Translations under genes and position numbers: made by a program
Shown here: positions 4,045 through 62,609 of the stretch, one piece after another
How positions within the stretch are numbered: position 1 is the stretch's first letter
How the letters are laid out: every line of letters starts with the position of its first letter
Source of the DNA: Trichormus variabilis 0441
Lineage (GTDB): Bacteria; Cyanobacteriota; Cyanobacteriia; Cyanobacteriales; Nostocaceae
DNA: 64,000 nt
NCBI RefSeq assembly: GCF_009856605.1
Contig: NZ_CP047242.1
Span: 4,408,001 to 4,472,000, forward strand
Direction: 5' to 3'
The notes under the pieces: generated by a model
The model's input: the letters and a program-made list of their open reading frames with translations, nothing else
What the model was told of the DNA's origin: nothing
Database searches by the model: none

Positions 4045-4403
4045 CAAACGCGCTTAATTGATTTATTACCCAAAACCAGTGTTATAATTACCTGTGGCTA
4101 CTTAAAGATTTTTAACAATCTCATCAGCCATAGGTATTTATATCTAAATAGCCACTAATGTAGATGGGTGGCTAGATCAAAGTATTTGCTAATTAACTGT
4201 AGTAACATGGGCTAGTCTCTAAACTAGCGTTTGTTATTTTTGTGTAAACTAAAATTGCAGAGAACACTAATTATAGCAAATAATCATAGCATTTGTCAGG
4301 GAATATCATCGAAATTTAAGGTTAATTTAATCTATTTGACTCTAAAAATTTCGATAATTGGGTGACAAGGGCTTGCAAAACTGCCAAAAAATTGGGAGAA
4401 AGC
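4045..4403. other. Intergenic region accA-SDR
   Basis: About 360 AT-rich bases without a convincing gene. An in-frame upstream GTG at 4362 could extend the following SDR by 14 residues, but it lacks a ribosome-binding site. Imperfect palindromic stretches occur around 4200-4235. No clear terminator or promoter was identified. Confidence 0.4.
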
Positions 4404-5129
4404 ATGAGTTTGGAGCAGAAACGACGCGCTCTGATTACTGGGGCAAGTAGTGGAATTGGCAAAGCAACGGCATTAGCCTTTGCAAAAGCAGGAATAGATG
4501 TGGCTTTGGTGAGCCGTTCTGGGGATAAATTGACACCTGTAGTAGAAGCAACAAAACAGACTGGAGTAGTAGCCAAAGCGTATACTGTAGACTTAGCAGA
4601 CGTATCGCAAGTAGAGGCGAAAATCCAGGCGATCGCCATTGACTTTGGAGACATAGATATTCTTGTAAATAATGCGGGTGTAGCATACACAGCTACCTTA
4701 AGTGAAACGCCCTTAGCAGACTGGCAACAAGTAATTAACTTGAACCTGACCAGCGTATTTGAATGTATTAAAGGAATTTTGCCAAGAATGCGCGCTCGGC
4801 ATACAGGCACAATCATCAATGTGTCTTCGATTGCAGCGAAACAATCTTTTCCGCACTGGGGAGTTTACAGCGTCAGTAAAGCAGGATTAATGGCACTTTC
4901 TCAAACCTTGGCACAAGAAGAACGTGTCCACGGCATTCGGGTAAGTGCGATTTGTCCAGGGGCTGTAAATACTGGACTTTGGGATACAGAGACGGTTAAA
5001 GCTGACTTTGACCGTTCCAAAATGCTCACCCCAGAAATTGTGGCTCAGTCAATTCTTTACACTGCACTATTACCACCACAAGCAGTCATTGATGAATTGA
5101 CGCTCATGCCCAGCGCAGGTGCGCTGTAA
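4404..5129 (+). CDS. Short-chain dehydrogenase/reductase (FabG-like)
   Basis: Classical SDR oxidoreductase of about 241 residues. It has the cofactor loop TGASSGIGKA near the N-terminus, the NNAG motif, the catalytic serine in INVSSIAAK and the Y-x-x-x-K pair in YSVSKAG. The start at 4404 is preferred because GGGAG at 4394-4398 lies 5 bases upstream and the protein then begins MSLEQKRRALITG. The substrate is unknown. Its place behind accA makes a 3-ketoacyl or related lipid reduction plausible but unproven. Confidence 0.88.
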   Translation: MSLEQKRRALITGASSGIGKATALAFAKAGIDVALVSRSGDKLTPVVEATKQTGVVAKAYTVDLADVSQVEAKIQAIAIDFGDIDILVNNAGVAYTATLSETPLADWQQVINLNLTSVFECIKGILPRMRARHTGTIINVSSIAAKQSFPHWGVYSVSKAGLMALSQTLAQEERVHGIRVSAICPGAVNTGLWDTETVKADFDRSKMLTPEIVAQSILYTALLPPQAVIDELTLMPSAGAL

Positions 5130-43106: not shown

Positions 43107-43215
43107 TCAAATTTTGGCAATTGGGTAGCGACTATATAAAGTCAACTGCTGCTGAAAGCGCCAGCGCTTGGCTATCCCAGTCCAGAGAGTAGGGGTAGGA
43201 GATTGTTACTTGTAA

Positions 43216-43260
43216 AGGCGGCACCCGGATTTGAACCGGGGGATGGAGGTTTTGCAGACC
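43216..43260 (-). other. 3' fragment of tRNA-Cys(GCA): prophage attachment site
   Basis: On the minus strand this is the second half of a tRNA: anticodon loop CTGCAAA with GCA, then ACCTCC, variable region, T arm CCCCGGTTCAAATCCGGG and acceptor strand TGCCGCC plus discriminator T. The 5' half (D arm) is absent; the expected bases stop at 43260. This is the displaced half-tRNA left when a phage integrates into a tRNA and restores the intact copy at its other end. The intact gene is not in this window. Confidence 0.85.
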
Positions 43261-48785: not shown

Positions 48786-49955
48786 TTAATCTCCGTAGGT
48801 TCTAGCAACCGTCACAAAGCGGTCATTGGTGAGTGACCAACCGCCGTACATAGCCCAAATCGCAATTACAAATCTTTGGTAATCGTCATTGTTGTTCAAG
48901 CGAACACTCACCGGGACTTCAGTTGCGATCGCTTCTCCCACCGCCTGCTGACCTAAGAAAATTCCCAGATGTCCAGTTCTGTTGGCTGCACCGGTGGGAT
49001 GTAGTCCAGCATTAGTAGACGCGGTGTAATTTAAATTCACCGTCGCCGTGGGCATATTGTTGGATTCAAAAAATCTCACACCCTCAAACACAAACCCTGT
49101 AGGCATCGCCTCACCCATGAAGCTGGCTTGCCCATATTGAGAGCCACCGAAAATCAATTGGTTGGGGCCAGAGATATAACCCTGGTTGGGTGGTGGCATC
49201 ATGGGAGCCGAGAACGGTGTAATGCCCGGCTGGAGGTAATTGGTAGGACAGAAAGAAGGATACTGAGCAACAGCGCGGAAATCTGGATCTTGCCGCAGGT
49301 GTTTGATAAACCGAGGGGCAGCCAAACAGTAGTAATACCCATCACTGAAGGTAGGAACGTTACGTGTCCGCATCCCTTCCACGATGGTTAACAGGTCATT
49401 TTTGACATCAATCTTTGGTGGGCCGGAAGCGTAAGTACCGCCATCCGCTACACCTTGGGGGTTGTAAGTAAACGGTGACTGCAAAAGTGTATTGATGTAG
49501 ACCCTATCCAACCATTTCCGATAGTCCCGGAATAGAGTCAGCGCACCGATACTCTGGTGAAAGGCTTGTATCTGTTGCGGGTTGTACTGCCACAAAGCCC
49601 GTTGAGCCAGCAATATGGTCTCCATCGGAATCTTGAAATTCCCTGGAGCATTGGGGTTATTCGCATCACCACCACTAGGGCCTGTGTACTCATCAATGGT
49701 GACAATGATTTTGGATTTCAAAATGTCACGGGAATTAGCAGTACCAATTGTCTGAGTAGGAGCGCGGCGGCGGGATTCTAAAGTAAAGCTGTCGTCTTCC
49801 CAGTATTCGTATCTATCGAGCTGTACCGTCTTACCGCGAGTTGCCGAAGCATCCCAAACAACTTGAGGTTGACAGACGAACTTAGATATAAACTGGGCAT
49901 CCGGTCTTAATAGTTCTGCTCCCAGAATCCTGGGAAAATCATCATCTATCCACAC
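48786..49955 (-). CDS. Probable major capsid protein
   Basis: 389 residues, starting GTG at 49953-49955. It lies in the usual capsid slot, downstream of the portal and before small connector-sized genes, and its size fits. Features seen: FVCQPQVVWDASATRGKTVQLDRYEYWED, DIVE-type long helices, and PTFSDGYYYCLAAPRFIKHLRQDPDF. I do not recognise a named capsid family with certainty. No prohead protease gene is next to it. Confidence 0.65.
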   Translation of the reverse strand: MWIDDDFPRILGAELLRPDAQFISKFVCQPQVVWDASATRGKTVQLDRYEYWEDDSFTLESRRRAPTQTIGTANSRDILKSKIIVTIDEYTGPSGGDANNPNAPGNFKIPMETILLAQRALWQYNPQQIQAFHQSIGALTLFRDYRKWLDRVYINTLLQSPFTYNPQGVADGGTYASGPPKIDVKNDLLTIVEGMRTRNVPTFSDGYYYCLAAPRFIKHLRQDPDFRAVAQYPSFCPTNYLQPGITPFSAPMMPPPNQGYISGPNQLIFGGSQYGQASFMGEAMPTGFVFEGVRFFESNNMPTATVNLNYTASTNAGLHPTGAANRTGHLGIFLGQQAVGEAIATEVPVSVRLNNNDDYQRFVIAIWAMYGGWSLTNDRFVTVARTYGD

Positions 49956-50012
49956 TGGGGTTCTGACCTTCTATGAAGTGGGCAACTTAGGTCAGAACTG
50001 AGAACGCGATCG

Positions 50013-50040
50013 CCCTGGACTAAACCCTCCAGGGTTTTTT
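50013..50040 (+). terminator. Rightward terminator hairpin between capsid and upstream gene
   Basis: CCCTGGA (50013-50019) pairs with TCCAGGG (50028-50034), followed by TTTTTT at 50035-50040. It points rightward, against the direction of all surrounding genes. Confidence 0.7.
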
Positions 50041-50060
50041 ATTGGTTGGCAAAAAACAAA

Positions 50061-50474
50061 TTAGAAACGCAAGGTATTTGCCATCAGGTTGGCATTGGTA
50101 TTGCGCGCCTGGTTGTAGGCATCCACCAAACCTTGAGCCGCATTGAAGCGGTTTTGCTGCTCGTTTATCGCCATATTGTTGTAGGTGTTTTGGCGCATTT
50201 GGTCAGCATTCAATCCCCGTGCAAAGGCTTGGTTTTCCATGCCAACGCCTTGCTGAAATCTCATGTCTGTTTGAGCGCGGGCGGTGGCGGCGTTGGCAAG
50301 TTCGTTCATGTCAAAGCCCAAGGCCTTGGCTTGGTCTAAAACATCGTCGTAATTGCGTCCGGCGGTAGCTGCCCGACCTGCTGCATTACCTATGGCAGCA
50401 CCAGCAATATTTGAAGCTGCACTACCAGCAGCACGTAGTAAGGAAGGAGCAACGGCTCCGATAACAGCCTGCAT
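50061..50474 (-). CDS. Small Ala/Asn/Gln-rich phage protein, possible internal virion protein
   Basis: 137 residues. The N-terminus (AVIGAVAPSLLRAAGSAASNIAGAAIGNAAGRAAT) is Gly/Ala-rich and hydrophobic, the rest is a coiled helix rich in Gln/Asn. Such proteins in short-tailed phages can be ejected with the DNA. That role is inferred. TAGGAG lies just before the ATG on the minus strand. Confidence 0.5.
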   Translation of the reverse strand: MQAVIGAVAPSLLRAAGSAASNIAGAAIGNAAGRAATAGRNYDDVLDQAKALGFDMNELANAATARAQTDMRFQQGVGMENQAFARGLNADQMRQNTYNNMAINEQQNRFNAAQGLVDAYNQARNTNANLMANTLRF

Positions 50475-50512
50475 ATTTTTTCTCCTAATGACTAATGACC
50501 ATTGACCATTGA

Positions 50513-51397
50513 CTACTGACCAAACAGCGAAACGATATCCTGGCTGGCGAGTTGGTCAATCACCTGCCAAGCCATACCTGGGTTATGTTGCCAAGCGGAT
50601 CTGAACTTGTCCCGGTTGTTGGTTGCACCGCCAACACCAGGGGCGGGGGGTGCGGGGAAAGATGGACGACTAAAGGCACTGGGGACAGAAGCTGTAGGTG
50701 TGACCAACTGCTTTTGTTGTGGTGGATCTAATTGCAAATACCACTCAGCACACTGCACCGGGTCAGAGAGAATTTCCCAGAACTTTTGGATCATCAAGTC
50801 CTGTGTTGCACTGAACTCTCCCAATACCACGGCATTAACCGCCAAGGGGCCAAGAGCATCCAGAGCTTGATCGGCGATCGCCAGATTTTGCTCTTGCTGT
50901 CCAATCAACTGGGAAAATTGCTCAATCACTTGAGTTGCGATCGCAATCTGTTGTTGTTGTTGAGCAAAAAGTCCAACAATCTGATCAGCAATGTTTAGTG
51001 CGTTAGTTTGACTCCGCACCACATTCTCCAGCCAGCCCACATACTCAGCAGTTTGGTTAGCGCTTACCCCTAGAGCGTTGGCTGTTGCCTGTCTGTTGCT
51101 GTTGGGCGAAGATACCCCAAAGTTCTGGGGAGACTGCGATGTCTGCTGGAAGCCCTGGGGGATAGAAATTGCTTGGCTGCTGTCCTGTTGGTAGACGTGG
51201 GACGGAATTGGTGACTGTACCGCCGGGGGTGGGGAGGGGATTGCCCCAATCCGCCCTTGAACGATATCCAACAGGCGGTTGGTAACTTGTCCCCACTCCT
51301 GGGAACTGTGTTGGGAGTCCTGCGGCGGCTGTGGAGCCGCGCTCGTCCCTTGGGGTATAAATGCCGGGGTTGGTGTCGCTTGGGGGGCTGCTACCAT
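50513..51397 (-). CDS. Gln/Pro-rich phage protein overlapping the portal gene
   Basis: 294 residues. The first 100 are Pro/Ser/Gln-rich and disordered, then a helical part (WLENVVRSQTNALNIADQIVGLFAQQQQQIAIATQ). The first ATG at 51395-51397 lies 341 bases inside the portal gene, in the +1 frame, and has no clear ribosome-binding site. A scaffold or ejection protein is possible. The true start may be further in. Confidence 0.55.
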   Translation of the reverse strand: MVAAPQATPTPAFIPQGTSAAPQPPQDSQHSSQEWGQVTNRLLDIVQGRIGAIPSPPPAVQSPIPSHVYQQDSSQAISIPQGFQQTSQSPQNFGVSSPNSNRQATANALGVSANQTAEYVGWLENVVRSQTNALNIADQIVGLFAQQQQQIAIATQVIEQFSQLIGQQEQNLAIADQALDALGPLAVNAVVLGEFSATQDLMIQKFWEILSDPVQCAEWYLQLDPPQQKQLVTPTASVPSAFSRPSFPAPPAPGVGGATNNRDKFRSAWQHNPGMAWQVIDQLASQDIVSLFGQ

Positions 51398-53183
51398 TTG
51401 TTGTTACATCGTTATATGAGTTAGAGCCATTGCCATTAGTTGTGGTAGGGCTATTGAGTTTGTCGGGTTCGTCGTAAGTCTCACCGTAAGAAAACTCTTG
51501 GGCAACTAACGACAAAGCTTTTTCGATTAGTGGGGTGATATCCAATCGCCACCCCAAGGGCATCGCCGGATCAAGCGGGTCAGGGAGACTCAAAAAGTTT
51601 TGATATAAACCTATGAGTTGATTAATCGCTTGAACTTTGTTTTGAGTGGTTCTATAGCTAAAATTCCCACTCTGCATCGCGGCGATTTCTTTATCGGTTT
51701 TGTCGGGAAAAAGAAAGCGTAAAACGTACTCAGTATTAATCCCCGCCTCTGCCAAGTTCCGTCCCACAATCGACTTATCCAAAATTTCCCGTGAAGTGTC
51801 TGGGAAAATTTCACTGGTGAACCTCCATTCAATTACTCTGTCCCCCATCGGTGGCATCCCAATCACACCGCGAGGGATAACGCCAAACTCCAACAGCATC
51901 TGACAGATATCGTCTGTGATGTCGTTGGGTGACTCTAGTTGAATGTCTTTGGGCTTGAGCTTGGCTCCCTGTTGTTTGTAGATGTCAGCCAGTAAGCCTT
52001 TAAATTCTTTTTCTTGCTCAATTGCTACTGCAAATAGAGATTGTTTAAACAGATTCTCCTCAGCCAAGAGAATCATCTCAAACAGTTTGCACAGTCCATA
52101 GTCATACAAAGCCAAACATTTTTTCCTAGCAGTCGCCGCAGTTGAACCACTTCTTACTTTGATTTCATATGCCGTCGCACCAGAACGAATCCCCAACGGA
52201 TCAACACCACCCAAAGCTGTGTGTAGTTGCTCACGGTATTCCCGTTGATATAAATTCTGATCACCACTCACCGGGTCAACCTGAATATATCCCACCCGTT
52301 CATCAGGCCCAATACCACCAATCACACTGGCGACTTTTTCACCACCATCAAACTGACTGCGCTCCCTGGGGTCTGACCTGTTCGTGCTGGGATAGTACCC
52401 AGACTGAGATGCAACTGTGGGAACAAAACCTGATACAGCAGCAGCTTCCAAAACCTCAGAGCGCGATCGCGTCGTCACCAATGTAGGATTGGCAAACAGC
52501 GACAAGTTTCTATTGATAGTCGTCAGCATCTTGTCATGACGCTCAATCGGCTGACGCAACCAATGAAACTCACTTGACCCTGGTTGACCGGGACGGCTGG
52601 GATGATTGGGGATAGCCACACAGGGAATAAACCCCAAGGTGTTCTCTACAGTTTGTACATTAGGGTCTTGCAGATCGATATCACCCGTAATCCCATTGAG
52701 ATTAGGCTTTTGTGTTAAATCATGCTGGCGGATTGTCTCTTTAGTAATTTCCAGTTTCACCCAGCGTTCTTCTTCCGTCCCCAGCAGCGAAAGCCGCTTG
52801 TAGGGATAGGCAATCACTACCCTTTCTAGTTCCCTACCCCCTGGCTTGTAGTAGGCTTTATACTCTGGGTTGGGGTCGGTTGTCCCCCCATGAAACCATG
52901 AGATTTCATAACTATCACCAGTGGGACGCAGGTAGAAAAGAATCTCGCCACAAGTCAGGTACAAGTCCCAGATGTAGTCCAAATAAAGATCCATCCGGTT
53001 GTACTTCCAGATACTGGAGATAAATTTCTTTCTCTCTCCAGTGGGGTCTTGCACCGGGTAAAGTTCGATTCCCCTGGCACCGAACAATTTCAACTGAGCA
53101 AGATGATTGGCAACAATCAGCGATTCGCCGCCGCCATTGCCGTCACGATTTACAACTGCCTGAATGATGTTCTCTAGGGTCAT
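51057..53183 (-). CDS. Phage portal protein
   Basis: 708 residues. The opening is helical (TLENIIQAVVNRDGNGGGESLIVANHLAQL). The central helices RSGATAYEIKVRSGSTAATARKKCLALYDYGLCKLFEMILLAEE and the surrounding beta segments resemble the crown and stem of portal proteins. The last 110 residues are low-complexity (Pro/Ser/Gln-rich) and share DNA with the next gene. Lies between terminase and capsid, the usual order. An exact copy of the GGGCAACTTAG motif lies 82 bases before its start. Confidence 0.78.
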   Translation of the reverse strand: MTLENIIQAVVNRDGNGGGESLIVANHLAQLKLFGARGIELYPVQDPTGERKKFISSIWKYNRMDLYLDYIWDLYLTCGEILFYLRPTGDSYEISWFHGGTTDPNPEYKAYYKPGGRELERVVIAYPYKRLSLLGTEEERWVKLEITKETIRQHDLTQKPNLNGITGDIDLQDPNVQTVENTLGFIPCVAIPNHPSRPGQPGSSEFHWLRQPIERHDKMLTTINRNLSLFANPTLVTTRSRSEVLEAAAVSGFVPTVASQSGYYPSTNRSDPRERSQFDGGEKVASVIGGIGPDERVGYIQVDPVSGDQNLYQREYREQLHTALGGVDPLGIRSGATAYEIKVRSGSTAATARKKCLALYDYGLCKLFEMILLAEENLFKQSLFAVAIEQEKEFKGLLADIYKQQGAKLKPKDIQLESPNDITDDICQMLLEFGVIPRGVIGMPPMGDRVIEWRFTSEIFPDTSREILDKSIVGRNLAEAGINTEYVLRFLFPDKTDKEIAAMQSGNFSYRTTQNKVQAINQLIGLYQNFLSLPDPLDPAMPLGWRLDITPLIEKALSLVAQEFSYGETYDEPDKLNSPTTTNGNGSNSYNDVTTNGSSPPSDTNPGIYTPRDERGSTAAAGLPTQFPGVGTSYQPPVGYRSRADWGNPLPTPGGTVTNSVPRLPTGQQPSNFYPPGLPADIAVSPELWGIFAQQQQTGNSQRSRGKR

Positions 53184-53264
53184 TAATTAGGAAATCCGGC
53201 TTACCTTCCGAGGGGTAAGCCGCGTAACAAAGGATACACTCTATAGAAAGACAACCTTCCTACC

Positions 53265-53441
53265 CTAAGTTGCCCACTTATCTATCTTGTGTCTGTGTCT
53301 CCAAAAAAGCTTAGACCAGCCTAATTGCGCTGGATATATTTCTATTAACCAGCGATCACACAAATAAGGACTATCAACTATTTGTTCGTAGTATTTCAAG
53401 TATTCTTCGTGGAAACTGCGATCCGCATCATTTAGGTTCAT
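53265..53441 (-). CDS. Small phage protein, 58 residues
   Basis: Begins MNLNDADRSFHEEYLKYYEQIVDSPYLCDRW with many aromatic residues. The ATG at 53439-53441 is preferred to an upstream TTG at 53480. Its last codons lie within the GGGCAACTTAG motif, so the motif and gene overlap. Function unknown. Confidence 0.5.
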   Translation of the reverse strand: MNLNDADRSFHEEYLKYYEQIVDSPYLCDRWLIEIYPAQLGWSKLFWRHRHKIDKWAT

Positions 53442-53476
53442 TTCACTTTTTCTCACGCAACCATAGGGAAAATTTC

Positions 53477-53617
53477 TCAAGGATTGGGTGATAGACTCTC
53501 TAAGTTGCGTAGAACAATCGTGAGGTTTACTAGCGTCACCGATTCATCCTGTCCGATAGCGTCTTTGGCTAAAATTTTTCTGATTTGAGTTTTCGTTAGG
53601 TTAGCGAGTTCTTCCAT
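53477..53617 (-). CDS. Short phage reading frame, 46 residues
   Basis: Opens MEELANLTKTQIRKILAKDA and ends ESLSPNP. Charged helix at the start, plausible small protein. No strong ribosome-binding site. It contains a weaker motif copy, CGCAACTTAG, at 53500-53509 on the minus strand. Confidence 0.4.
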   Translation of the reverse strand: MEELANLTKTQIRKILAKDAIGQDESVTLVNLTIVLRNLESLSPNP

Positions 53618-53682
53618 TTTTTTTGCCTGGTAAGTGGGGGATATCTGCGACAACAATGTTAGGTGTAGGAAAAATTTTTAGC

Positions 53683-53940
53683 CTAACAACAACGTGTCAC
53701 ACCTAATCGACCTGCAAAACCTCCCATTGTTGCTTTTCCTTCGGCAATGTGATCAAGTAAATGGGCGGTGCTACATAGTGAGTTATTTAACTCGCCAAGA
53801 AGCGTCATACCGATTTCGGGGCATTGAGCAGCTAAAGCAATAAGTTGTCGGCATTCAAGTTGCACTTTTTTTGCCTGCGCCTCAACACTTTCTGGTGTTG
53901 TTGTAACCTTTGTCATTTCGTTATCGGGTGTATAGTCCAT
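53683..53940 (-). CDS. Small phage protein, 85 residues
   Basis: Helical throughout (EAQAKKVQLECRQLIALAAQCPEIGMTLLGELNNSL), C-terminus VTRCC. A methionine at residue 9 is another possible start. It lies between terminase and portal. Function unknown. Confidence 0.5.
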   Translation of the reverse strand: MDYTPDNEMTKVTTTPESVEAQAKKVQLECRQLIALAAQCPEIGMTLLGELNNSLCSTAHLLDHIAEGKATMGGFAGRLGVTRCC

Positions 53941-53994
53941 AGCTAAGTTCGTAATCTCCAGTAAAGTTTGTTGATGAACAGACCTATTGTTCCC

Positions 53995-55449
53995 TCACGC
54001 AACCTCAAGCTTACGTCTACCCATCAACCCAACTAAGCAATAAACCAAAGCATCCACACAATCATCCTTATCCATCGCGCCAAAGTTAATGAGTTCATCA
54101 ACCAACCGCCCCATCATCCGGTATTGGTTAAAGGTAACTAGCCCATTTTGAAATAACCCCGACACCCCGCGCAGTCGCTGCAACTTATCCCCTTTAGTCG
54201 TCGGCTGCTGGTATTGAATATTAAAAATCTGCTTCTCATTCACCAAGTAGTGAGTAAAGTCACCCTTCAAGGAACTTTGATAAGCCACAGCCTCAGCGCA
54301 CAGTGTTATTGGCAACTCTCCCCAGTCTGCCCACAGTTCAATAATCTGGTCGAGCTTTTCAATATTCCCACTCCACCGACCCCGCCGGATGTCGAGAATG
54401 TAAAACTTGTTGCCAACTCGACCACCCAAAACAAACACCGTGTAATCAGCCCGTTCTCTGAGTGATGCTGACAAATCCCCACCGATACACAGCGAGTCAA
54501 AATGATCGGGGAATTCACCATGCTTGATCCACAGTGGGTCAATGGAGGTTTCAGAACTCCGCATTACCCGGTTTTGATACTGGAAGCTAAACGCGACCGG
54601 GCTATCTTCCCTCAGTGCTTGCAATTCTTCCAGGGTGAAGCGTTCCGGCCAGTAACTTACTTCCTTACCGTCATCATCATCAACAATTGCCTGCTGTACA
54701 ATTTGCTTCCATCCCTTCGCCGGAATGAAATCAGTACAGTGGATGTCATCGGCACGGAAGCGAGTCCCAATATTGACCTGTCTCCCCCCTGGCTTGAGAG
54801 TAGGCCTGATTACCTCTGAATAGTTGGTGGTAATTTTCTCGCGTACTTCTGGATTCTCAATTGATTCAGAAGACTTAATAATGTCGTCGTAGACCACCAA
54901 ATCACTACGGCGGCTGGTGATACTTCCAGTGATACCTGTGGCGTAAAAGGTGTAGTCAGAATCCAGGCTGTCAACACCTGCAAAATCCTTTCTAATTTCC
55001 CAGTCGGTATCACTCCACCTTTTACCCGGTAATACATTTGGGAAAACTTCCCTATACTTGGGACTCTCAATAATTCGCTTGATGATGCGGCTACGAGATA
55101 AGGCGACAGATTCAGAGTAAGAAACATAAATAATCTGAATACTGGGATTGTGACCAATCACCCACGCCACCCACATAGCAATCCAGGTACTCTTGGCACT
55201 ACCTCTAGGTGCAAGAATACTCAGATTGTCCCCCGCGACTAATTCAAGAGTCTGGGAAGAAATCCCTGTAACTAGTTCAGTAATCCATTCCAGGTGATGC
55301 TCTGCTGCCGTTTTTCCCGTTACATACTCAGCAAAGTAAGCAAAGTCATTCCAAGCCCTAAGAGCATTGGGCGATCGCGCTGCAATAGTCGCTGATCTGG
55401 CGGCTTCCCTGGCTTTCTCTCTATACTGCTTATAGATTCGTGTCGCCAT
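53995..55449 (-). CDS. Phage terminase large subunit
   Basis: DNA-packaging motor and nuclease, 484 residues. Walker A is LAPRGSAKST (residues 79-88), the Walker B region is RSDLVVYDDII, and the coupling strand is GTRFRADDIH. The nuclease half begins CIGGDLSASLRERADYTVFVLG, with the metal-binding Asp, and includes AEAVAYQSSLK. The C-terminus is typical of the family (DKDDCVDALVYCLVGLM). The start codon is 11 bases from that of the oppositely directed HU gene. Confidence 0.93.
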   Translation of the reverse strand: MATRIYKQYREKAREAARSATIAARSPNALRAWNDFAYFAEYVTGKTAAEHHLEWITELVTGISSQTLELVAGDNLSILAPRGSAKSTWIAMWVAWVIGHNPSIQIIYVSYSESVALSRSRIIKRIIESPKYREVFPNVLPGKRWSDTDWEIRKDFAGVDSLDSDYTFYATGITGSITSRRSDLVVYDDIIKSSESIENPEVREKITTNYSEVIRPTLKPGGRQVNIGTRFRADDIHCTDFIPAKGWKQIVQQAIVDDDDGKEVSYWPERFTLEELQALREDSPVAFSFQYQNRVMRSSETSIDPLWIKHGEFPDHFDSLCIGGDLSASLRERADYTVFVLGGRVGNKFYILDIRRGRWSGNIEKLDQIIELWADWGELPITLCAEAVAYQSSLKGDFTHYLVNEKQIFNIQYQQPTTKGDKLQRLRGVSGLFQNGLVTFNQYRMMGRLVDELINFGAMDKDDCVDALVYCLVGLMGRRKLEVA

Positions 55450-55460
55450 TGTTTTTACTT

Positions 55461-55754
55461 ATGAACAAAGCAGAATTGATACAAGCAGTTGCCGCCAAAG
55501 CAAACGTCAGCCAAAAGCAAGCTGAGACAGTCCTTAACGCCACAACAGACACCATCGTTGAGACAGTCGCCAACGGTGGGAAAGTGATACTCGTTGGGTT
55601 CGGTTCGTTTGAAGCTAGGGCTAGAAAGGAGCGTGAAGGACGTAACCCCAAGACAAACGAAAAGATGATTATCCCAGCTACCACTGTCCCCGCCTTTAGC
55701 CCTGGTAAGCACTTTAAAACTGAAGTCACAGCTACTCTTCCTCAAGCCGGCTGA
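55461..55754 (+). CDS. HU family DNA-binding protein (phage-borne)
   Basis: Histone-like DNA-bending protein, 97 residues from ATG 55461. Complete family signature: MNKAELIQAVAAKANVSQKQAETVLNATTDTIVETVANGGKVILVGFGSFEARARKEREGRNPKT and IIPATTVPAFSPGKHFK. It is coded rightward inside an otherwise leftward packaging module, and its 3' end overlaps the next gene by 23 bases. It could help in packaging, replication or integrative recombination. Confidence 0.95.
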   Translation: MNKAELIQAVAAKANVSQKQAETVLNATTDTIVETVANGGKVILVGFGSFEARARKEREGRNPKTNEKMIIPATTVPAFSPGKHFKTEVTATLPQAG

Positions 55755-56298
55755 GGACACCTTTGGTAGCTTCCACCAATGCCGATTCAAAAGGCGTATC
55801 AGCGAAAATCAAGCGCAACTCTTGAATTGCCCGATACGCCCCTGCCATTTCCAAAGCCTTGCGATCGCGGATGTACTTTTGCCCGTTCACCGCCTCGGCA
55901 CAAGCCCTCACTTCTCTGGATAAGTGAGAAACTACTGGCAGTAATTTTTCAGGGTCTATCGCCCCAACCCCTCCCTTGAGCTTCAGCACCTCCATTACGC
56001 TGTCAATTAGGTCAGCGTTTAGCACCAATACTTTCTGTAAAGCATCTCCAGTATCTACACCAGAGAAGGCTGATGTTAGGATGTTGAACCGTTTGGCCTC
56101 CTCACCTACTGGGAAAAATGCCCGATACCAATTCTGTACCGCAGTCTGAGAAACCTTATACCCCCAATCCTCAAGTAGTTGACGAATAGCCGTGGTGTTA
56201 CGGTTGTGCTTACAAAATTCGTCAAACTCCTGTAACCGCTCGGCACTCATGAGCGAGCGAATCTGGTCTACCCTATGTTGAGGGGCTTTTCTAGTCAC
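55732..56298 (-). CDS. Putative terminase small subunit (DUF3486-like)
   Basis: 188 residues starting GTG at 56296-56298. The N-terminus (RVDQIRSLMSAERLQEFDEFCKHNRNTTAIRQLLEDWGYKVSQTAVQNWYRAFF) looks like the helix-turn-helix of small terminase subunits of the Mu gp27/DUF3486 kind. The rest is helical. It lies upstream of the large subunit with only the HU gene between. Assignment is by pattern and position. Confidence 0.6.
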   Translation of the reverse strand: MTRKAPQHRVDQIRSLMSAERLQEFDEFCKHNRNTTAIRQLLEDWGYKVSQTAVQNWYRAFFPVGEEAKRFNILTSAFSGVDTGDALQKVLVLNADLIDSVMEVLKLKGGVGAIDPEKLLPVVSHLSREVRACAEAVNGQKYIRDRKALEMAGAYRAIQELRLIFADTPFESALVEATKGVLSRLEEE

Positions 56299-56320
56299 AG
56301 ATGTTTACACTTGTTGATAG

Positions 56321-56782
56321 TTACCGTCTATTTCGGAAGGATGCGATCGCAGCAGAGCGATCCTCAGACTTTTCACGCTGCTTTATTTGGCTACGAAGTC
56401 CTGCCATATCGCGCTCCTGACCAAAGCCAGATTCCTGCATCCTCTCCCGCGCCGCAATTTGAGCCGCATCCCGGCGCTCAATAGATTGCAGGTTGTCACC
56501 TTGTAGAGTGCGGTTATTCTGGAAATTCTGATCAGTTTCTTTCGCTCTGTAACCAAAAGCCCTAGAAGCATTGGCTTCTGCCTCCCTTTGTCGCAAGTCA
56601 AAGCCTACGTTCCAGGTGTCTCTAAGTTGGTTTAGGCGGTCTTGAGCTTGTTGCTGGGCGGCCGTTCGATTCTTGTCTGCTAAGTACTGTCCATACTCAG
56701 CCCAGTCCATTTGCTTCCCGTCAACATTAAAAGTTAGATTTTGAGTCGAGACGGAAGATCCGCCGATGGCTGACATTACCAT
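56321..56782 (-). CDS. Phage protein, Arg/Gln/Glu-rich, 153 residues
   Basis: ATG 56782 overlaps the stop of the upstream gene (TAATG) and has GGAGGTGG upstream. Contains long charged helices (AAQQQAQDRLNQLRDTW; RDAAQIAARERMQESGF). Composition is like internal virion or scaffold proteins; no family recognised. Confidence 0.5.
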   Translation of the reverse strand: MVMSAIGGSSVSTQNLTFNVDGKQMDWAEYGQYLADKNRTAAQQQAQDRLNQLRDTWNVGFDLRQREAEANASRAFGYRAKETDQNFQNNRTLQGDNLQSIERRDAAQIAARERMQESGFGQERDMAGLRSQIKQREKSEDRSAAIASFRNRR

Positions 56783-57423
56783 TAGAACCACCTCCAGGTC
56801 GATTCACCAGTATTGCCACTTAAAATGGCGGTATCCTGTTGTATCTGTGCTAACCTTTGTTGCGCCGCCAGTTGCGCCCCCTGCATAGTGCGTTCATTAG
56901 CTTGGCGTTGTTGCTCCAATATTTGTTGATTGTAGCGATCGCGGTCAGCTTGTGCTAATTGTCTTTTAAGGTCTCTTGTTGCGGACTCATCCCGAAGCCT
57001 CGACTCCTCCCGCATCATTGCCACCCTGGGGTTCAGTCCTGCTTCATACTCCACCCTGGGATTGTAGATATTTCCCTTGAATACTGGGCGATATACATTG
57101 AGTCCTTCTTCATAACCGGAATAACTGCCACCAGATCGGTTGGCTTCTCGCCTCGCCTCCGTTTGGCGCTCAAAATCCCTTTGCTTTGAATACTCCTCCC
57201 TCTGCGCCGCCTCAATACTGGCATTGCGTTGGCGATTGTAGGCATCCTGCTGATTTTGTCCCGCAAAAAACCTTTGCTGAAAAGCGTCGTCAGTTGCAGC
57301 CTGTTGCGACTGCCTCAATAGCCGTGCTGGATCGTTTGGCTGCAAGAATCGCTCCGGCGTTTCATTGCGCCTCGCCAAGTTCGTGTTCCTATTCCCTGTC
57401 CTGGTATTGGTTCCCGAAGTCAT
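56782..57423 (-). CDS. Phage protein with long Gln/Arg coiled coil
   Basis: 213 residues from ATG 57423. Almost entirely charged and polar helix (EAAQREEYSKQRDFERQTEARREANRS; QADRDRYNQQILEQQRQANERTMQGAQLAAQQRLAQ). A similar style to the next gene downstream. The ATG is 20 bases after an exact GGGCAACTTAG on the minus strand. It begins the leftward late module. An upstream in-frame ATG at 57471 is less likely. Confidence 0.55.
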   Translation of the reverse strand: MTSGTNTRTGNRNTNLARRNETPERFLQPNDPARLLRQSQQAATDDAFQQRFFAGQNQQDAYNRQRNASIEAAQREEYSKQRDFERQTEARREANRSGGSYSGYEEGLNVYRPVFKGNIYNPRVEYEAGLNPRVAMMREESRLRDESATRDLKRQLAQADRDRYNQQILEQQRQANERTMQGAQLAAQQRLAQIQQDTAILSGNTGESTWRWF

Positions 57424-57479
57424 AGTAAGTTCGTAGCTCTGACCTAAGTTGCCCTCAACCGTCGTAACCAAGATTACAA

Positions 57480-57499
57480 TTGAGAACTACGGTTCTCAA
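57480..57499. promoter_or_regulatory. Perfect 20-bp palindrome in the divergent phage control region
   Basis: TTGAGAACTACGGTTCTCAA: 8-bp arms with centre TACG. It lies 9 bases before the ATG at 57509 and 56 bases upstream of the leftward start at 57423. Size and symmetry fit an operator for a dimeric repressor, though a 5' hairpin in the rightward mRNA is also possible. Confidence 0.6.
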
Positions 57500-57508
57500 A
57501 AGTAATTT

Positions 57509-58165
57509 ATGAGTGAAGAATTAGCTAAAAAAGCATATCGAGCATACGGTCAAACAACCGATTTCAAAAACTATCAAGGCTTATCCATGCCTGATTGGGA
57601 AAATCTCCCAGAGACTATTCAAAAGGCTTGGACGAGTGCTGCTGTTGCAGTGACTTCACCAGAGGAAAAGCCGCAAGACCTTAAGGAAAAATGGTACTGC
57701 TTTGATATGTATCCAGAGGACATAGACCCTCGGTTTGTTTACTGGTTATTAAAAAATGGCATTGAAATCAGGTTGAATGGGCTGGGCAAAAGAGGGGTGA
57801 TAGCTAATTTGCGATCGCATCTGCCAGAGAGGTGTTGCACCCAGTTCTTCGCAGATGAGATGGAACCAGCACATATCTTTCCTGGATTGGGAGAAATACT
57901 AGACGTAACTAGCGCTTTAGATAAGCACGACGAAACTCTTGGTAAGCCGGAAAGAAGATACAGAAACCCTCTCACCGAAGATTTCGGCAGAATCAACCAT
58001 AAAAATATCGCTGACCATCTGCTCGACGAGATTGAGAAGATATCTGTTAGACAGCACAGACTAAAGGGTTTTTTGATGATGTACAGGATGTCATTCAATC
58101 CAGGGGAGATTTTTCCTATTTCCTACAATGTGGACACAGAAGAAGGCAATGAGGATGATGAGTAG
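57509..58165 (+). CDS. Phage protein of unknown function, 218 residues
   Basis: Opens MSEELAKKAYRAYGQTTDFKNYQGLSMPDWENLPETIQKAW, an N-terminal module I recall from phage proteins of similar size that begin with a helical 'AYRAYGQ.TDFKN..G..MP.W..LP' string. The middle has EMEPAHIFPGLG. Acidic C-terminus (EEGNEDDE). First gene of the rightward early module. No function can be given. Confidence 0.65.
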   Translation: MSEELAKKAYRAYGQTTDFKNYQGLSMPDWENLPETIQKAWTSAAVAVTSPEEKPQDLKEKWYCFDMYPEDIDPRFVYWLLKNGIEIRLNGLGKRGVIANLRSHLPERCCTQFFADEMEPAHIFPGLGEILDVTSALDKHDETLGKPERRYRNPLTEDFGRINHKNIADHLLDEIEKISVRQHRLKGFLMMYRMSFNPGEIFPISYNVDTEEGNEDDE

Positions 58166-58166
58166 C

Positions 58167-58751
58167 ATGAAATATTTTATTGACACAGAGTTCATTGAAG
58201 ACGGTCAAACTATCGACTTAATCAGTATTGGTATAGTTTGCGAAGACGGGCGGGAATTTTACGGTATCAACTGGGATTGCGACTTCAAACACGCGAGTAA
58301 ATGGGTCCAAGAGAACGTTCTGATTCATTTGCCATTTCGCCCGGTCAACGAACCAACCCCCAACACCCAAAACTGGTACACAAAAAAAGACTTGAAATTG
58401 GCTGTATTGGATTTTTTGGGATGCACTTACGGCACACCTGGGAGCTTATGCCCTGGCAAATATTACTTGTCAAATCACATCTCCAAGCCAGAGTTTTGGG
58501 GGTACTACGCTGATTATGACTGGGTTGTGTTTTGCCAACTATTCGGCAGGATGATTGACTTACCCCAAGGCTTCCCGATGTATTGTCGAGACATCAAGCA
58601 ATGGTGCGACCAATTAGGCAACCCCAAGTTGCCCGAACAAGGCAAGGGTGAGCATAGCGCGATCGCGGATGCCAAATGGAACAAAACAGCGTGGGAATTT
58701 CTGCAAAAGTGGCAAGATGGGTTACTCAATGCTAGTGACTGGAGTGCCTAA
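58167..58751 (+). CDS. DEDDh-type 3'-5' exonuclease (RNase AS-like)
   Basis: 194 residues starting MKYFIDTEFIEDGQTIDLISIGIVCEDGREFYGIN, with the DxE pair of DEDD nucleases at residues 6-8 (DTE). The other acids are in YADYDWVVFCQLFGR (D) and EHSAIADAKWN (H and D). Family resembles the Rv2179c/DUF5051 exoribonucleases. ATG 58167 is preferred. Phage-borne members probably degrade host RNA or recycle nucleotides. Confidence 0.8.
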   Translation: MKYFIDTEFIEDGQTIDLISIGIVCEDGREFYGINWDCDFKHASKWVQENVLIHLPFRPVNEPTPNTQNWYTKKDLKLAVLDFLGCTYGTPGSLCPGKYYLSNHISKPEFWGYYADYDWVVFCQLFGRMIDLPQGFPMYCRDIKQWCDQLGNPKLPEQGKGEHSAIADAKWNKTAWEFLQKWQDGLLNASDWSA

Positions 58752-58973
58752 ATGGCTAAAGACAACATAATTCCCATATTGAAGAATGTTGAAGTTACTT
58801 GTACTACTTGCAAACAAAATCGAGTGACATCTTTTCCTGCTCCCAATCACTTTTTATGTGAGGTATGTAGAGCGAGGATATTTCAGTTAAGCGATTTGCT
58901 TTCTGCGGTTATGAGTGAAGATTTTGATTGTGCGCGATCAGTTGCCCAATCTATTTTGAATTTGGAATTGTAG
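58752..58973 (+). CDS. Small zinc-finger phage protein
   Basis: 73 residues with two CxxC knuckles, CTTCKQN and CEVCRAR, suggesting one zinc. It starts directly after the exonuclease stop codon. The remainder is helical and acidic. Function unknown. Confidence 0.6.
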   Translation: MAKDNIIPILKNVEVTCTTCKQNRVTSFPAPNHFLCEVCRARIFQLSDLLSAVMSEDFDCARSVAQSILNLEL

Positions 58974-58975
58974 CT

Positions 58976-59455
58976 ATGCAAGACCTAGTGGTTTTAAAAT
59001 TTGACTCTTACCCCAATGCGATCGCATGGCTGAACGAGAATCCTGGGGTTGCGGTAAAAGGAGAAGACGCACCTTTTGGATTTGGTATAGGAAAAAGTCT
59101 GATGTCATTGCATATTATTTTTTCTAGGTGCATGAATGAGGGCGATAGACTAAGAATTCTAGAATTTTTCCCAAGTGCCAAAGACGTAAATAATATGCGT
59201 CAAGAGATTGGGTATCCTCCCTTGGGACATTCTCATTCCATGTACCTGATTCACGGTTTTACCAGGAAACAGGTAATCGAAATACTAAAACACAATTTTG
59301 GTGTAACCGTTAAAAAATCTGAGTGTTGTGCAGAAATGGTTGACTTAGGTGAATGCTTTGATAGATTGAAAGAACTAGAAATAAGAATTGGTGGCCCGTT
59401 GAGCCGGGAAGATATAAATAAAATTGGTGACTTGTATAGAAAGTTATATCCTTGA
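58976..59455 (+). CDS. Phage protein of unknown function, 159 residues
   Basis: ATG 58976 follows the previous stop by two bases. The first third is alpha/beta (DLVVLKFDSYPNAIAWLNENPGVAV); the middle, LRILEFFPSAKDVNNMRQEIGYPPLGHSHSMYLIHGFT, is not recognised. The stop overlaps the start of the next small zinc gene. Confidence 0.55.
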   Translation: MQDLVVLKFDSYPNAIAWLNENPGVAVKGEDAPFGFGIGKSLMSLHIIFSRCMNEGDRLRILEFFPSAKDVNNMRQEIGYPPLGHSHSMYLIHGFTRKQVIEILKHNFGVTVKKSECCAEMVDLGECFDRLKELEIRIGGPLSREDINKIGDLYRKLYP

Positions 59456-59604
59456 ACGAGCAATCAATCACCTGTCCCCAATGTGGGAAAATTTCCTACA
59501 ACCAAAACGATATAATTCACAAATACTGTGGACAATGTCATCAGTATCATAAAGACATGAAACCCAAGTTTTCACGCCCAAAAAAGGGTTCAAAAAATTT
59601 GTGA
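59452..59604 (+). CDS. Small zinc-ribbon phage protein, 50 residues
   Basis: Starts TTG at 59452, overlapping the upstream stop (TTGA). Sequence contains CPQCGKISYNQND and HKYCGQCHQYH: CxxC plus CxxC with a following His, a motif frequently seen in short phage zinc proteins (type CPxCGxxSxNxND...YCGxCHxFH). The tail is basic (KPKFSRPKKGSKN). Confidence 0.7.
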   Translation: MNEQSITCPQCGKISYNQNDIIHKYCGQCHQYHKDMKPKFSRPKKGSKNL

Positions 59605-59718
59605 CACTTGGTGTTACTTTCAAAGTGGGTTTTCCCCAGCTAAAAATAAACCCTGCCGATGCCCTGCATCCAGCCTGTGGTGGGAATCATAGGGGTATGC
59701 ACACCTGGGGAGGGGCTT

Positions 59719-60441
59719 ATGACCACTGAATTATTTAGAGAGTACCGAAACAATCCCACACGGCAACTGCGCGATCGCATTTTCAACCACCATTACAAAC
59801 TGGCCTGCGAGATTGCCCATCAATATAGAATCTGTTGTGATGAACCACTAGAAGATTTAATTCAGTTGGCGGGGGTAGGAATGTTGACAGCCATTGAGCG
59901 CTTTGACCCAAGCCGAAGCAATGCTTTTAGTTCATTTGCTTGCCCGTACATCAAAGGGGAGATCCGGCATTACCTGAGAGACAAAGCCAGTACTGTGAAG
60001 ATTCCGCGATCGCTTCAGAGTTTGTACCAGCGAGGCAAGAAGCTGCATGGAACCGATGAGCAAATTGCAAAAGCTCTAGGCTGCACCCAACAGCAATGGA
60101 AAGAAGCCAAAGCCATAGGGGTTAATCGCAATTTGTTTAACATCGATAACTTGCTTACTCTCACACTGGAATGGAGCGAAGGGTGCGGAGGTTCTGACAC
60201 AGTAAGTATGAAACGGTTTTTGTCGGCATTATCATTTCAAGAACAACCGGTTAAACCTATTGCCACCACCATAGAACCGTCTTCGTTAAGCCAGTTAGAT
60301 GAAGCTAATCAACAGTTGATCGAGATGTTCTTCTTCCAGAATGAACCGCTTAAAGAAGTGAAGAGGACAGCGATCGCATCTGGTAAAGGCAAAGATGTTA
60401 AAACCTTATTGGTAAATGCAGTCTTAATGATCAACGGGTAG
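59719..60441 (+). CDS. Phage-encoded sigma-70 family RNA polymerase sigma factor
   Basis: 240 residues from ATG 59719 (GGGAGGGG just upstream). Region 2 is clear: IFNHHYKLACEIAHQYRICCDEPLEDLIQLAGVGMLTAIERFDPSRSNAFSSFACPYIKGEIRHYLRD, covering core-binding and -10 recognition parts. Region 3 follows with TVKIPRSLQSLYQRGKKLHGTDEQIAKALGCTQQQWKEA. Region 4 is weak or replaced by a divergent tail (LIEMFFFQNEPLKEVKRTAI). It is group-3-like (SigF/SigB style). A phage gene of this sort could redirect host polymerase to late phage promoters. Confidence 0.88.
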   Translation: MTTELFREYRNNPTRQLRDRIFNHHYKLACEIAHQYRICCDEPLEDLIQLAGVGMLTAIERFDPSRSNAFSSFACPYIKGEIRHYLRDKASTVKIPRSLQSLYQRGKKLHGTDEQIAKALGCTQQQWKEAKAIGVNRNLFNIDNLLTLTLEWSEGCGGSDTVSMKRFLSALSFQEQPVKPIATTIEPSSLSQLDEANQQLIEMFFFQNEPLKEVKRTAIASGKGKDVKTLLVNAVLMING

Positions 60442-61029
60442 GATTGTGCAAGCCTTAATACTGTGGCGAGGGTTGCTCAATTCCTGCCTGATTTTTTCCT
60501 CCAGTAATCCCAGCCAATTGAGTCTATCAACCTGGGAAAGCCAAGTCATGTCTGGTGTTTTACTGGAATTAGTTATCTGCAAGGGACGCAGCGCAACTCC
60601 GAGTATTGCTCGTTTGGGTGCAAGTTCTCGGAGTGACCAGTTTCCGGTTGCACCTTGTAAATCAACATCCCACACACCAATAGCCCGGTTACTGCTATTA
60701 GGGTAAATTTCCCAAACTGCAAAGCGATGTGTAAGCGCAGCATTATGTGGATAAGGTAATGGTCGAAGCCGGAAAGCTGTCCCGCCGAACTCCCCAACCA
60801 TCTCCGCTTGCAGTTCGGGGAGGTAATCAAGTGTGAGTAAATAGTCAGGGCTGCTTTGTTTGGGAATGATCCTATAGGTTGCGACAGCCCCTTGGGTGTT
60901 GCGTTCAAGTCGCAGTACAGCACAGTTGGCTCCATACCATCTCTTGATGATGGTTGGGCTAGTGCGCTGCTTTGATGCAGGTCGAAATAGTTTTCTAATC
61001 CATCTTCGTAATCGGGTGAGCCATGCCAC
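60424..61029 (-). CDS. Phage protein of unknown function, 201 residues
   Basis: GTG start at 61027-61029. Basic opening MAWLTRLRRWIRKLFRP, then beta-rich body (NCAVLRLERNTQGAVATYRIIPK). It overlaps the sigma gene's 3' end by 18 bases. A competing frame starting at 61031 (152 residues) is rejected because its composition is less protein-like. Confidence 0.55.
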   Translation of the reverse strand: MAWLTRLRRWIRKLFRPASKQRTSPTIIKRWYGANCAVLRLERNTQGAVATYRIIPKQSSPDYLLTLDYLPELQAEMVGEFGGTAFRLRPLPYPHNAALTHRFAVWEIYPNSSNRAIGVWDVDLQGATGNWSLRELAPKRAILGVALRPLQITNSSKTPDMTWLSQVDRLNWLGLLEEKIRQELSNPRHSIKACTILPVDH

Positions 61030-61030
61030 A

Positions 61031-61306
61031 TTATTTTTTCCCGATGTCGAAGCTGGACAAAAGATTGCTCACTCGGTCGGTGGGAGACAAACGAATGAAC
61101 CCACCCAAGCCAGATATAAGAGCTATTCGCTCAATAGATTCTCGAAACGGTAATTGCCCCAGCCAAGCATCTCTGACGGTAATTCCTACTGGCATCATCA
61201 GCAGTAGCCACAGCAGCAACTCAAATGGGTCTAAATGAATTTTTTTGTCTTTTTGAAATACCAGCGTCAACCCACTGGATGGACGGTCATTGTCAATGGA
61301 CTCCAT
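61031..61306 (-). CDS. Small membrane-associated phage protein
   Basis: 91 residues with one hydrophobic segment (DPFELLLWLLLMMPVGITV). The ATG is at 61304-61306. An exact GGGCAACTTAG lies 24 bases upstream on the minus strand. Could be a lysis or superinfection-exclusion protein; only the membrane segment supports that. Confidence 0.5.
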   Translation of the reverse strand: MESIDNDRPSSGLTLVFQKDKKIHLDPFELLLWLLLMMPVGITVRDAWLGQLPFRESIERIALISGLGGFIRLSPTDRVSNLLSSFDIGKK

Positions 61307-61340
61307 AAGAGCATAGGTCAAGACTATACTCTAAGTTGCC

Positions 61341-61574
61341 CTAGCTTGCTAATTGCAGTTGGGATAGTTCCGTCAAGGTGGTTTCTAGCCAGGTGATATC
61401 TTCCTGGGTTAGTAGTAGTTTTACTTTCTTCCAAATAGCTTGAATTTCTTTGTCGTCGTACAAAGCTGTCAGCTTTTGGCTTAGTTCTGATACCTTCTGG
61501 CTATCTCGTCTACATACTGCGGCTGTGAGTTGGATTGATGCCCAGCCTTTGGCTTCGTCAATTACTAATGGCAT
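61341..61574 (-). CDS. Small phage protein, 77 residues
   Basis: Helical, opens MPLVIDEAKGWASIQLTAAVCRRD and continues with ELSQKLTALYDDKEIQAIWKKVKLLL. Transcribed away from the integrase. No family recognised. Confidence 0.5.
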   Translation of the reverse strand: MPLVIDEAKGWASIQLTAAVCRRDSQKVSELSQKLTALYDDKEIQAIWKKVKLLLTQEDITWLETTLTELSQLQLAS

Positions 61575-61624
61575 AATTTATCTTTTATTAATATTTAATC
61601 TTGCGCCGTAAAGTTATTTTTTTA

Positions 61625-61644
61625 ACTCAGAATTATCACTGAGT
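61625..61644. promoter_or_regulatory. Inverted repeat ACTCAG-N8-CTGAGT before the integrase
   Basis: Six-base arms at 61625-61630 and 61639-61644 in the 105-base region between the leftward 77-residue gene and the integrase. Candidate operator controlling integrase expression. Confidence 0.45.
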
Positions 61645-61679
61645 AAATTAAATACTTTGTACATTGGGCAGCTTAGGAT

Positions 61680-62609
61680 ATGGAAGAAGCTGCTTTAGTT
61701 TTAGAAACTGGGGATAGGTTAGCCTCACTTAATCCGGCTGCTGTTTACCTCGCCTCACTGGGTAAAGGTAGCCGCCGGACGATGAAGCAGGCATTGGATG
61801 CGATCGCACTCCTTGCCACTAATCAAACTTGTGATGCTATGAACTGCCCGTGGGGGCTACTACGGTATCAGCACACAATGGCAATTCGGGCTGAGTTGAT
61901 GGAGAAGTACGCACCTGCGACGGCAAACAAGATGCTGGCTGCACTGCGGCGGGTACTCAAGGAAGCCCAACGCCTGGGGCAAATGACACCGGAAGATTAC
62001 GCCAAGGCTGCTGATATTAAGCGAGTTAAGTCTAGTGGGTTGCCTAAAGGTAGGGCGTTGTCTTCTGATGAGCTGGGAAAATTGCTCAATGTCTGCGTTG
62101 AAGATGAATCAATATTTGGTGTTCGGGATGCGGCGATGTTGATGATACTCCGGGTGGGGTTGCGCCGGGGTGAAGTGGTGAACCTGGATTTAGCTGACCT
62201 TGACTTGAATGAAGGGAGTGTGAAGGTCAGAGGGGGGAAGGGACGTAAGGATAGGGTGGTGTTTTTTCCTGAAAGTGCGATCGCATACTTGCAGAAATGG
62301 GTGAAAATCAGGGGTGATGACTCTAGTCCGTTGCTACTCCCGATTAGCAAATCTGGTAATTTGGTGTGGCGACGGCTTTCTGATCAAGCTGTATTGTCAA
62401 TCATGCTGGGACGGGGTGAAGAAGCAGGTATTGAGAATTTTACGCCCCACGATTTTAGAAGGACTTTTGCAGGTGACTTGCTGGATGCTGGGGTTGATAT
62501 TGTGACTGTACAAAAGCTCATGGGTCATGCTGACCCGGCGACTACGGCGAAGTATGACAGGCGTGGGGATGCGGCGAAGAAACGGGCAGTTAACCTACTA
62601 AAGCTGTGA
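61680..62609 (+). CDS. Tyrosine integrase/recombinase
   Basis: Site-specific recombinase of 309 residues. N-terminal SAM-like core-binding domain (about 20-115), then the catalytic domain with R162 (RVGLRRGE), K185-K187 region, H257 and R260 (HDFRRTF), H283 (LMGHADP) and Y292 (TAKYDRRG). The GGGCAGCTTAG near-motif ends three bases before the ATG. Presumably acts on the tRNA-Cys attachment site identified at 43216-43260. Confidence 0.95.
   Translation: MEEAALVLETGDRLASLNPAAVYLASLGKGSRRTMKQALDAIALLATNQTCDAMNCPWGLLRYQHTMAIRAELMEKYAPATANKMLAALRRVLKEAQRLGQMTPEDYAKAADIKRVKSSGLPKGRALSSDELGKLLNVCVEDESIFGVRDAAMLMILRVGLRRGEVVNLDLADLDLNEGSVKVRGGKGRKDRVVFFPESAIAYLQKWVKIRGDDSSPLLLPISKSGNLVWRRLSDQAVLSIMLGRGEEAGIENFTPHDFRRTFAGDLLDAGVDIVTVQKLMGHADPATTAKYDRRGDAAKKRAVNLLKL

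Follow-up and report, generated by a model that had tools for sequence, protein, structure and literature searches.

The element described here invites comparison with the late promoters of bacteriophage T4, with promoters read by SigB- and SigF-type sigma factors, and with the stoperators of mycobacteriophage L5. T4 late promoters, which depend on gp55, are built on a short conserved -10-type element (TATAAATA, at -13 to -6) without a -35 box, and the available portion of one report describes a diverged gp55 together with a diverged late box in the T4-like phage Aeh1 (PMC1524935). According to excerpts of two further sources, the -10 box of the SigB family has three near-invariant G residues and an A at position 5, its other positions and the -35 region being less conserved (PMC8346170), and cyanobacterial SigF, which groups with SigB, is associated with GGTAA near -12 and TAGGC near -32 (PMC2758279). 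The L5 repressor sites, which belong to a temperate phage, are asymmetric 13-mers located in short gaps between genes, and the part of the source at hand counts more than twenty, distributed genome-wide and oriented with transcription (PMC9283540). For cyanophage Ma-LMM01, phage-specific motifs are reported absent in the portion of that study available (PMC5780444). Open-licence papers yielded nothing on the element itself, which is weak evidence of its absence from print.

The window, the whole 64-kb stretch of Trichormus variabilis 0441 DNA that was analyzed, contains the left part of a prophage of ~37 kb. Its left end is a 48-bp stretch (43213..43260) that matches part of an intact tRNA-Cys gene with 91.7% identity; this gene is at the right end of the prophage and lies outside the window (80367-80438). 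On the minus strand are the genes for the major head (capsid) protein (48786..49955; phrog_1357), the portal protein (51057..53183; phrog_20475, a relative of which is named portal) and the terminase large subunit (53995..55449; phrog_38), the first gene of the leftward late module (56782..57423, ATG at 57423) and a gene for a small, partly hydrophobic protein, referred to below as the membrane gene (61031..61306, ATG at 61306); the last two matched no family. The plus strand encodes a SigB/SigF-type sigma factor (59659..60441; likely start at the ATG of MTTELF, 240 aa), which is the presumed reader of the elements, and a tyrosine integrase (61680..62609; PF00589), and the gene set also includes HU. 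Close relatives of these genes come from Nostoc-type cyanobacteria. The nearest annotated phage in the collection is Synechococcus phage S-EIV1, with a portal protein 33% and a capsid protein 41-42% identical.

The original prediction placed four exact copies of the 11-base motif GGGCAACTTAG and one copy with a single mismatch in the window, and its five coordinates, strands and sequences all proved exact. Its chance expectation of ~0.03 copies of an 11-mer in 64 kb is arithmetically right, though the word was picked after it had been seen. The genome of 7.1 Mb (7,096,012 bases in five contigs) holds five exact copies, four of them in the prophage and inside 11.4 kb and the fifth (C1:1017339) inside a gene that its context marks as a putative peptide synthetase; the reversed pattern, used as a control, has seven copies against these five. 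An extended 16-base pattern, GGGCARSTTARRNYAK, which was fixed on ten sites from the window and the related prophage G113, the five window sites among them, has five genome matches, all in the prophage, and its reversed control has none. When up to two mismatches are allowed, the window contains 16 matches against 17.6 expected, so near-perfect copies alone stand out. With a weight matrix built on 13 sites, the five in the window score 24.1-27.6 bits; the next-best prophage site, which is inside a gene, reaches 16.4 bits, and no site in the examined host flank (67 kb) scores above 11.1 bits. One-mismatch copies at 6207, in the host half, and at 58624, in a prophage gene, both fall outside the 16-base pattern; the statement that none was seen in the host half is correct for exact copies. 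The elements span 49980-61681, ~12 kb of the 37-kb prophage, with no site of comparable score elsewhere in it, so the proposal of a phage-wide control element is supported as to control and too broad as to 'phage-wide'. Use of the motif as an integrase binding site was rejected because no copy lies close to the prophage ends.

Recurrence of the motif was also assessed against shuffled sequence. Among 60 pairs of first-order shuffles of the window prophage region and the G113 prophage, none had any 11-mer with at least three copies in both regions; the 11-mers that reach this level in the real pair are GCGATCGC words, CCA repeats, GAAATTTTCCC and the GGGCAACTTAG motif. In an unguided search the motif was the top-ranked word of the window region (present in 6 of 18 gaps; uncorrected P = 7e-5), and a variant of it came first in G113 (5 of 23 gaps, P = 3.5e-4), there barely above other words; the same search covered L033, L034-L037, G033, G772, G801 and S-EIV1. 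A second phage-enriched word, the near-palindromic GGGAAAATTTC, has 20 genome copies, eight of them in the prophage (48203, 51802, 53466, 59485 and four more up to C1:4482964) and partly in genes; the G113 prophage also has eight, at least three at matching places.

A motif search of the genome and of related prophages, as had been suggested with the original prediction, found the 16-mer at five of five places in the prophage, five of five in G113 and three of three in G160. The portal protein was matched in 3 of 217 family genomes, the host genome (G000) counted. In G113 the sites stand at orthologous places beside the capsid gene (21533, plus strand), portal gene (24868, minus), late module (29666, minus), membrane gene (32691, minus) and integrase gene (33016, plus), and 53 of the 55 positions in the 11-mers are identical to the window, against 4-21 of 30 bases in the upstream flanks and 11-22 of 30 in the downstream flanks in an ungapped comparison that overstates divergence where indels occur. 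One more exact 11-mer in G113, at 32475, lies in a gene and does not match the 16-mer; an IMG/VR contig carries the same copies at the same offsets as G113. G160, previously noticed through its sigma gene, was inspected after the 16-mer had been fixed, and the three places present on its two contigs (integrase C88:4955, minus; membrane gene C88:5272, plus; late module C18:419, plus) account for three of its four matches, the fourth being on C57. Across the 217 genomes the 16-mer matches at 107 places in 72 genomes, or ~0.4 per genome outside the three prophages, and matches no more than 15 kb apart on the same contig are confined to G000, G113, G160 and G179, where the pair is 58 bases apart. 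The motif is real, phage-specific and conserved in place.

Two further observations concern these genomes. In G160 (L137:2398-4439) a terminase ORF is followed by a putative transposase-like ORF on the opposite strand and then by host-like genes, and as we read these ORFs the locus is a broken relative of the window prophage. The sequence GGGCAACTTAGGTCAG occurs once each in G127, G148 and G159 (L138, L139 and L140), after a shared stretch with AGGAGGTGGTnATACTC; this is a different intergenic element with its own shared context.

The shape of the element was derived from 13 sites, which come from five places in three phages related to one another and do not amount to 13 independent events; the in-gene copies at G113:32475 and window position 58624 and the matches in other genomes are left out of this table. 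No variation occurs in columns 1-5 (GGGCA), 8-10 (TTA) and 15 (A), and every site has C or T in column 14 and G or T in column 16. In the surrounding 30 bases, all columns other than -1 to 16 stay at or below 0.76 bits. GGGCAA and GGGCAG match the SigB-family -10 box GGGNAN, with columns 1-3 and 5 invariant at 13 of 13 sites; CTTAG is strongly conserved, more than a SigB box requires. An invariant pyrimidine-A stands eight bases past the box at all 13 sites. Pyrimidine-A is a common context for transcript starts, and the invariant A of column 15 is probably such a start, although the assignments of columns 1-6 as box and column 15 as start were made after the sites were seen, the box having been shifted to columns 1-6 with the data in view, once the G160 sites and the literature were known. 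An alternative -10 box, GGGTAT, which lies downstream of the 11-mer, was abandoned because it would place starts within the integrase gene. Searches for a -35 box placed TAGGC, GTTT and GTTTAA no nearer to the element than in shuffles (P = 0.25, 0.23 and 0.47, respectively), and for this reason the element is not classed as a canonical SigB/SigF promoter.

The element has features of two known promoter types. It shares with SigB/SigF promoters the GGGNAN box (compare GGTAA at -12 for SigF) and a sigma factor of the same class, as far as the excerpts of PMC8346170 and PMC2758279 describe them, but no GTTTAA or TAGGC -35 sequence was found for it and its conservation runs through CTTAG to the start. 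With T4 late promoters it shares a short conserved -10-type element without a -35 box, and with column 15 taken as +1 it would span -14 to +2; unlike them it has other letters, has a SigB/SigF-type sigma rather than gp55 as its presumed reader, and belongs to a temperate cyanobacterial phage in which the integrase gene is among those that bear the element.

Four of the five elements follow the direction of transcription and the fifth, beside the capsid gene, is reversed. The late-module element (GGGCAACTTAGGTCAG, 57439..57454, minus strand) has a predicted start at 57440, and it occupies the same place in G113 and G160; the distance from the A of column 15 to the start codon is 17, 18 and 18 nt in the window, G113 and G160. 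At the membrane gene (GGGCAACTTAGAGTAT, 61326..61341, minus strand; predicted start 61327), where position is also shared by the three phages, this distance is 21 nt (ATG) in the window, 14 (ATG) or 20 (GTG) nt in G113 and 21 nt (GTG) in G160. The portal element (GGGCAACTTAGGGTAG, 53260..53275, minus strand; predicted start 53261) would give leaders of 78 nt in the window and 63 nt in G113, which also has a TTG at 18 nt, and it is kept in G113 within flanks that are otherwise unlike. In the variant element at the integrase gene (GGGCAGCTTAGGATAT, 61666..61681, plus strand), column 15 is the first base of the ATG (61680), with the same zero offset in all three phages, so a leaderless mRNA is implied. 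Zero-length leaders would be unusual for the integrase, and this counts against a promoter.

Other sequences lie near the late-module element. Upstream of it are the palindrome GAGAACCGTAGTTCTC (57482-57497), of the form GAGAAC-CGTA-GTTCTC, and a GTA-N8-TAC sequence (57464-57477). The palindrome stands at a fixed distance before the element in the window, G113 and G160, and has one change in L033; GTA-N8-TAC is kept in the same three phages while its middle changes, and presumably resembles an NtcA box. The palindrome GAGAACNNNNGTTCTC, upstream of the late module, had the look of an operator but was rejected as one, with 11 genome sites, 10 more copies being in the host; two of the four host sites inspected lie between convergent ORFs, suggesting that these copies may be a hairpin family.

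The window sigma factor is SigF/SigB-like by profiles, by PDB sequence search and by predicted fold, and a Foldseek search with its model gave Staphylococcus aureus SigB as the best match. Full-length superposition on most complexes gave an rmsd of 21-24 Å, reflecting different domain placement, and region 2 alone gave 1.2-1.7 Å over 78-91 residues. Pfam recognizes only region 2 in this protein, and region 4 in 14 of 26 aligned sigma factors; the model has a C-terminal helical domain. All four phages compared encode a SigB/SigF-type sigma. Upstream of the rightward sigma operon the element is absent from that strand at up to two mismatches.

The reversed element (GGGCAACTTAGGTCAG, 49980..49995, plus strand; predicted start 49994) lies between the capsid gene and the gene preceding it, against late transcription, and has the same place and orientation in G113. 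It points into an intrinsic terminator (50012..50040, plus strand; 8-bp stem and T6), and terminators end 47, 54 and 58 nt past column 15 in the window, G113 and L033, although their sequences differ. A promoter that faces a terminator predicts a very short RNA, here ~50 nt, so a capsid-side RNA of this size may be produced. The copy is enclosed by an inverted repeat (GTTCTGACCT ... AGGTCAGAAC, 49960..49998) in both the window and G113, which differ by one paired change. Pairing of the capsid-leader RNA with other leaders was considered and set aside, as was a mini-hairpin AAGT-GGGCA-ACTT that is found at the capsid and portal sites only.

A more diverged relative, L033, is 67% identical to the window prophage in portal, 87% in capsid, 66% in integrase and 35% in sigma factor, and lacks the 11-mer at up to one mismatch. 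In place of GGGCAA it has GGGTAG at three orthologous places and in one further leader: at the late module, where GGGTAG lies 43 bases after the palindrome start as GGGCAA does in the other three phages, upstream of the portal gene (9968, plus strand), reversed at the capsid gene (13176, minus) and before the gene at 3980-4822 (4853, minus). TGGGTAG is common to the three orthologous leaders, and a shared 7-mer of any kind turns up in 20 of 3000 triples of shuffled sequence and in 25 of 3000 real triples drawn at random; TGGGTAG occurs nine times in L033, five of them in genes. Pyrimidine-A occupies columns 14-15 in just two of the four leader sites, and GGGTAG was not among the top six words of the unguided search in L033, coming first only in nine hand-chosen gaps. 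These data are suggestive of a diverged sigma factor that goes with a diverged element, perhaps a parallel to gp55 and the late box of Aeh1 as far as the accessible text describes them (PMC1524935). In more distant relatives, several of them partial contigs, tblastn found no relative of the window sigma and the motif did not recur, G033 having a single one-mismatch copy; the 41.6 of 79 kb of S-EIV1 that was searched has neither a copy at up to one mismatch nor a relative of the sigma.

Of the three roles that had been offered for the motif, the best fit is a promoter read by the phage sigma factor; a repressor operator is possible, and nothing was found in favor of antitermination. We consider it likely, though well short of certain, that the 16-bp element is a phage-specific promoter for host RNA polymerase carrying the phage SigB/SigF-class sigma. 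The main rival, which we regard as rather unlikely, is an operator or stoperator, an asymmetric site at which a phage repressor or activator silences or switches units in the lysogen. Such a protein would account more easily than a -10 box for the conservation of CTTAG, and the copy at the integrase gene ends on the start codon. The site is contiguous, asymmetric and strongly conserved, occupies short intergenic gaps and overlaps stop or start codons. In these respects and in belonging to a temperate phage the sites resemble the 13-mers of L5, but five sites in 12 kb, one of them reversed at the capsid gene and none elsewhere in the 37-kb prophage, differ from the more than twenty spread-out, transcription-oriented sites in the portion of PMC9283540 available. 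A two-domain monomeric immunity repressor is a feature of the L5-type system, and no repressor candidate was identified at the sequence level; an operator also leaves the invariant pyrimidine-A at the expected start unexplained.

Action at the RNA level, in mRNA leaders and in the capsid short RNA, through protein binding or pairing, appears improbable. Four of the five elements are near start codons, the capsid copy with its paired change in G113 sits between inverted-repeat arms, and at the integrase gene GCAGCTT is complementary to AAGCTGC around the ATG (61670-61699) in the window and G113, so that the two can pair; against this, no other site shares the hairpin, predicted folds are about as stable as those of shuffled sequence (z -1.4 to 0.6), Rfam gave no match at E up to 1 across 43000-64000, and the G160 integrase copy has A rather than G at column 6, so this pairing is not kept there. 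More improbable still is a role in antitermination or pausing, by which polymerase would pass late-region terminators: terminator-like hairpins do lie downstream at the capsid gene in three phages and at the portal gene in the window and G113, but the remaining places have none, the one at the capsid gene acts as an intrinsic terminator along the motif's own direction, with no gene beyond, and the analysis identified no antiterminator gene. Chance or a host repeat could draw on the two-mismatch counts, which equal expectation, and on the single 16-mer matches scattered through many family genomes, yet we give it almost no credence, as grouped, near-perfect copies occupy orthologous phage places in three prophages, the third of which already contradicts it.

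If the element is a promoter, GGGCAA would serve as the -10 box, followed by the conserved CTTAG and by a start at the A of column 15. The sigma gene, in a rightward operon that lacks the element, would presumably be transcribed first from other promoters, and its product would then switch on the leftward packaging module, the portal gene and those that follow it, the operon of the small membrane protein and an integrase mRNA without a leader; the same promoter, reversed at the capsid gene, would run into the terminator to yield the short RNA. The element with its positions and conservation, the sigma gene and its predicted fold, the leader spacings and the terminators are observed; we infer the reading of the element by this sigma, the positions of the transcript starts, the timing and the short RNA itself. 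A bolder proposal, which we offer with considerable doubt, is that this is a new promoter class, with no -35 box and a 16-bp element that extends from the -10 box over the start, that drives late genes and a leaderless integrase while an antisense RNA of ~50 nt meters capsid output. A single sigma would in that case activate both virion genes and a brake.

A phage sigma factor with its own promoter signal would probably be a further example of a strategy already known from viruses. If this is correct, temperate phages of Nostoc-type cyanobacteria would run their late genes by a stress-type sigma of their own, and the promoter and sigma would form a pair separate from those of the host, as the confinement of all five 16-mer matches in 7.1 Mb to the phage suggests. 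The starts are predicted exactly and would be testable by 5'-end mapping. In addition, the element would provide a marker for such prophages, and the capsid-side RNA would be a product to seek in the bacteria that carry them.
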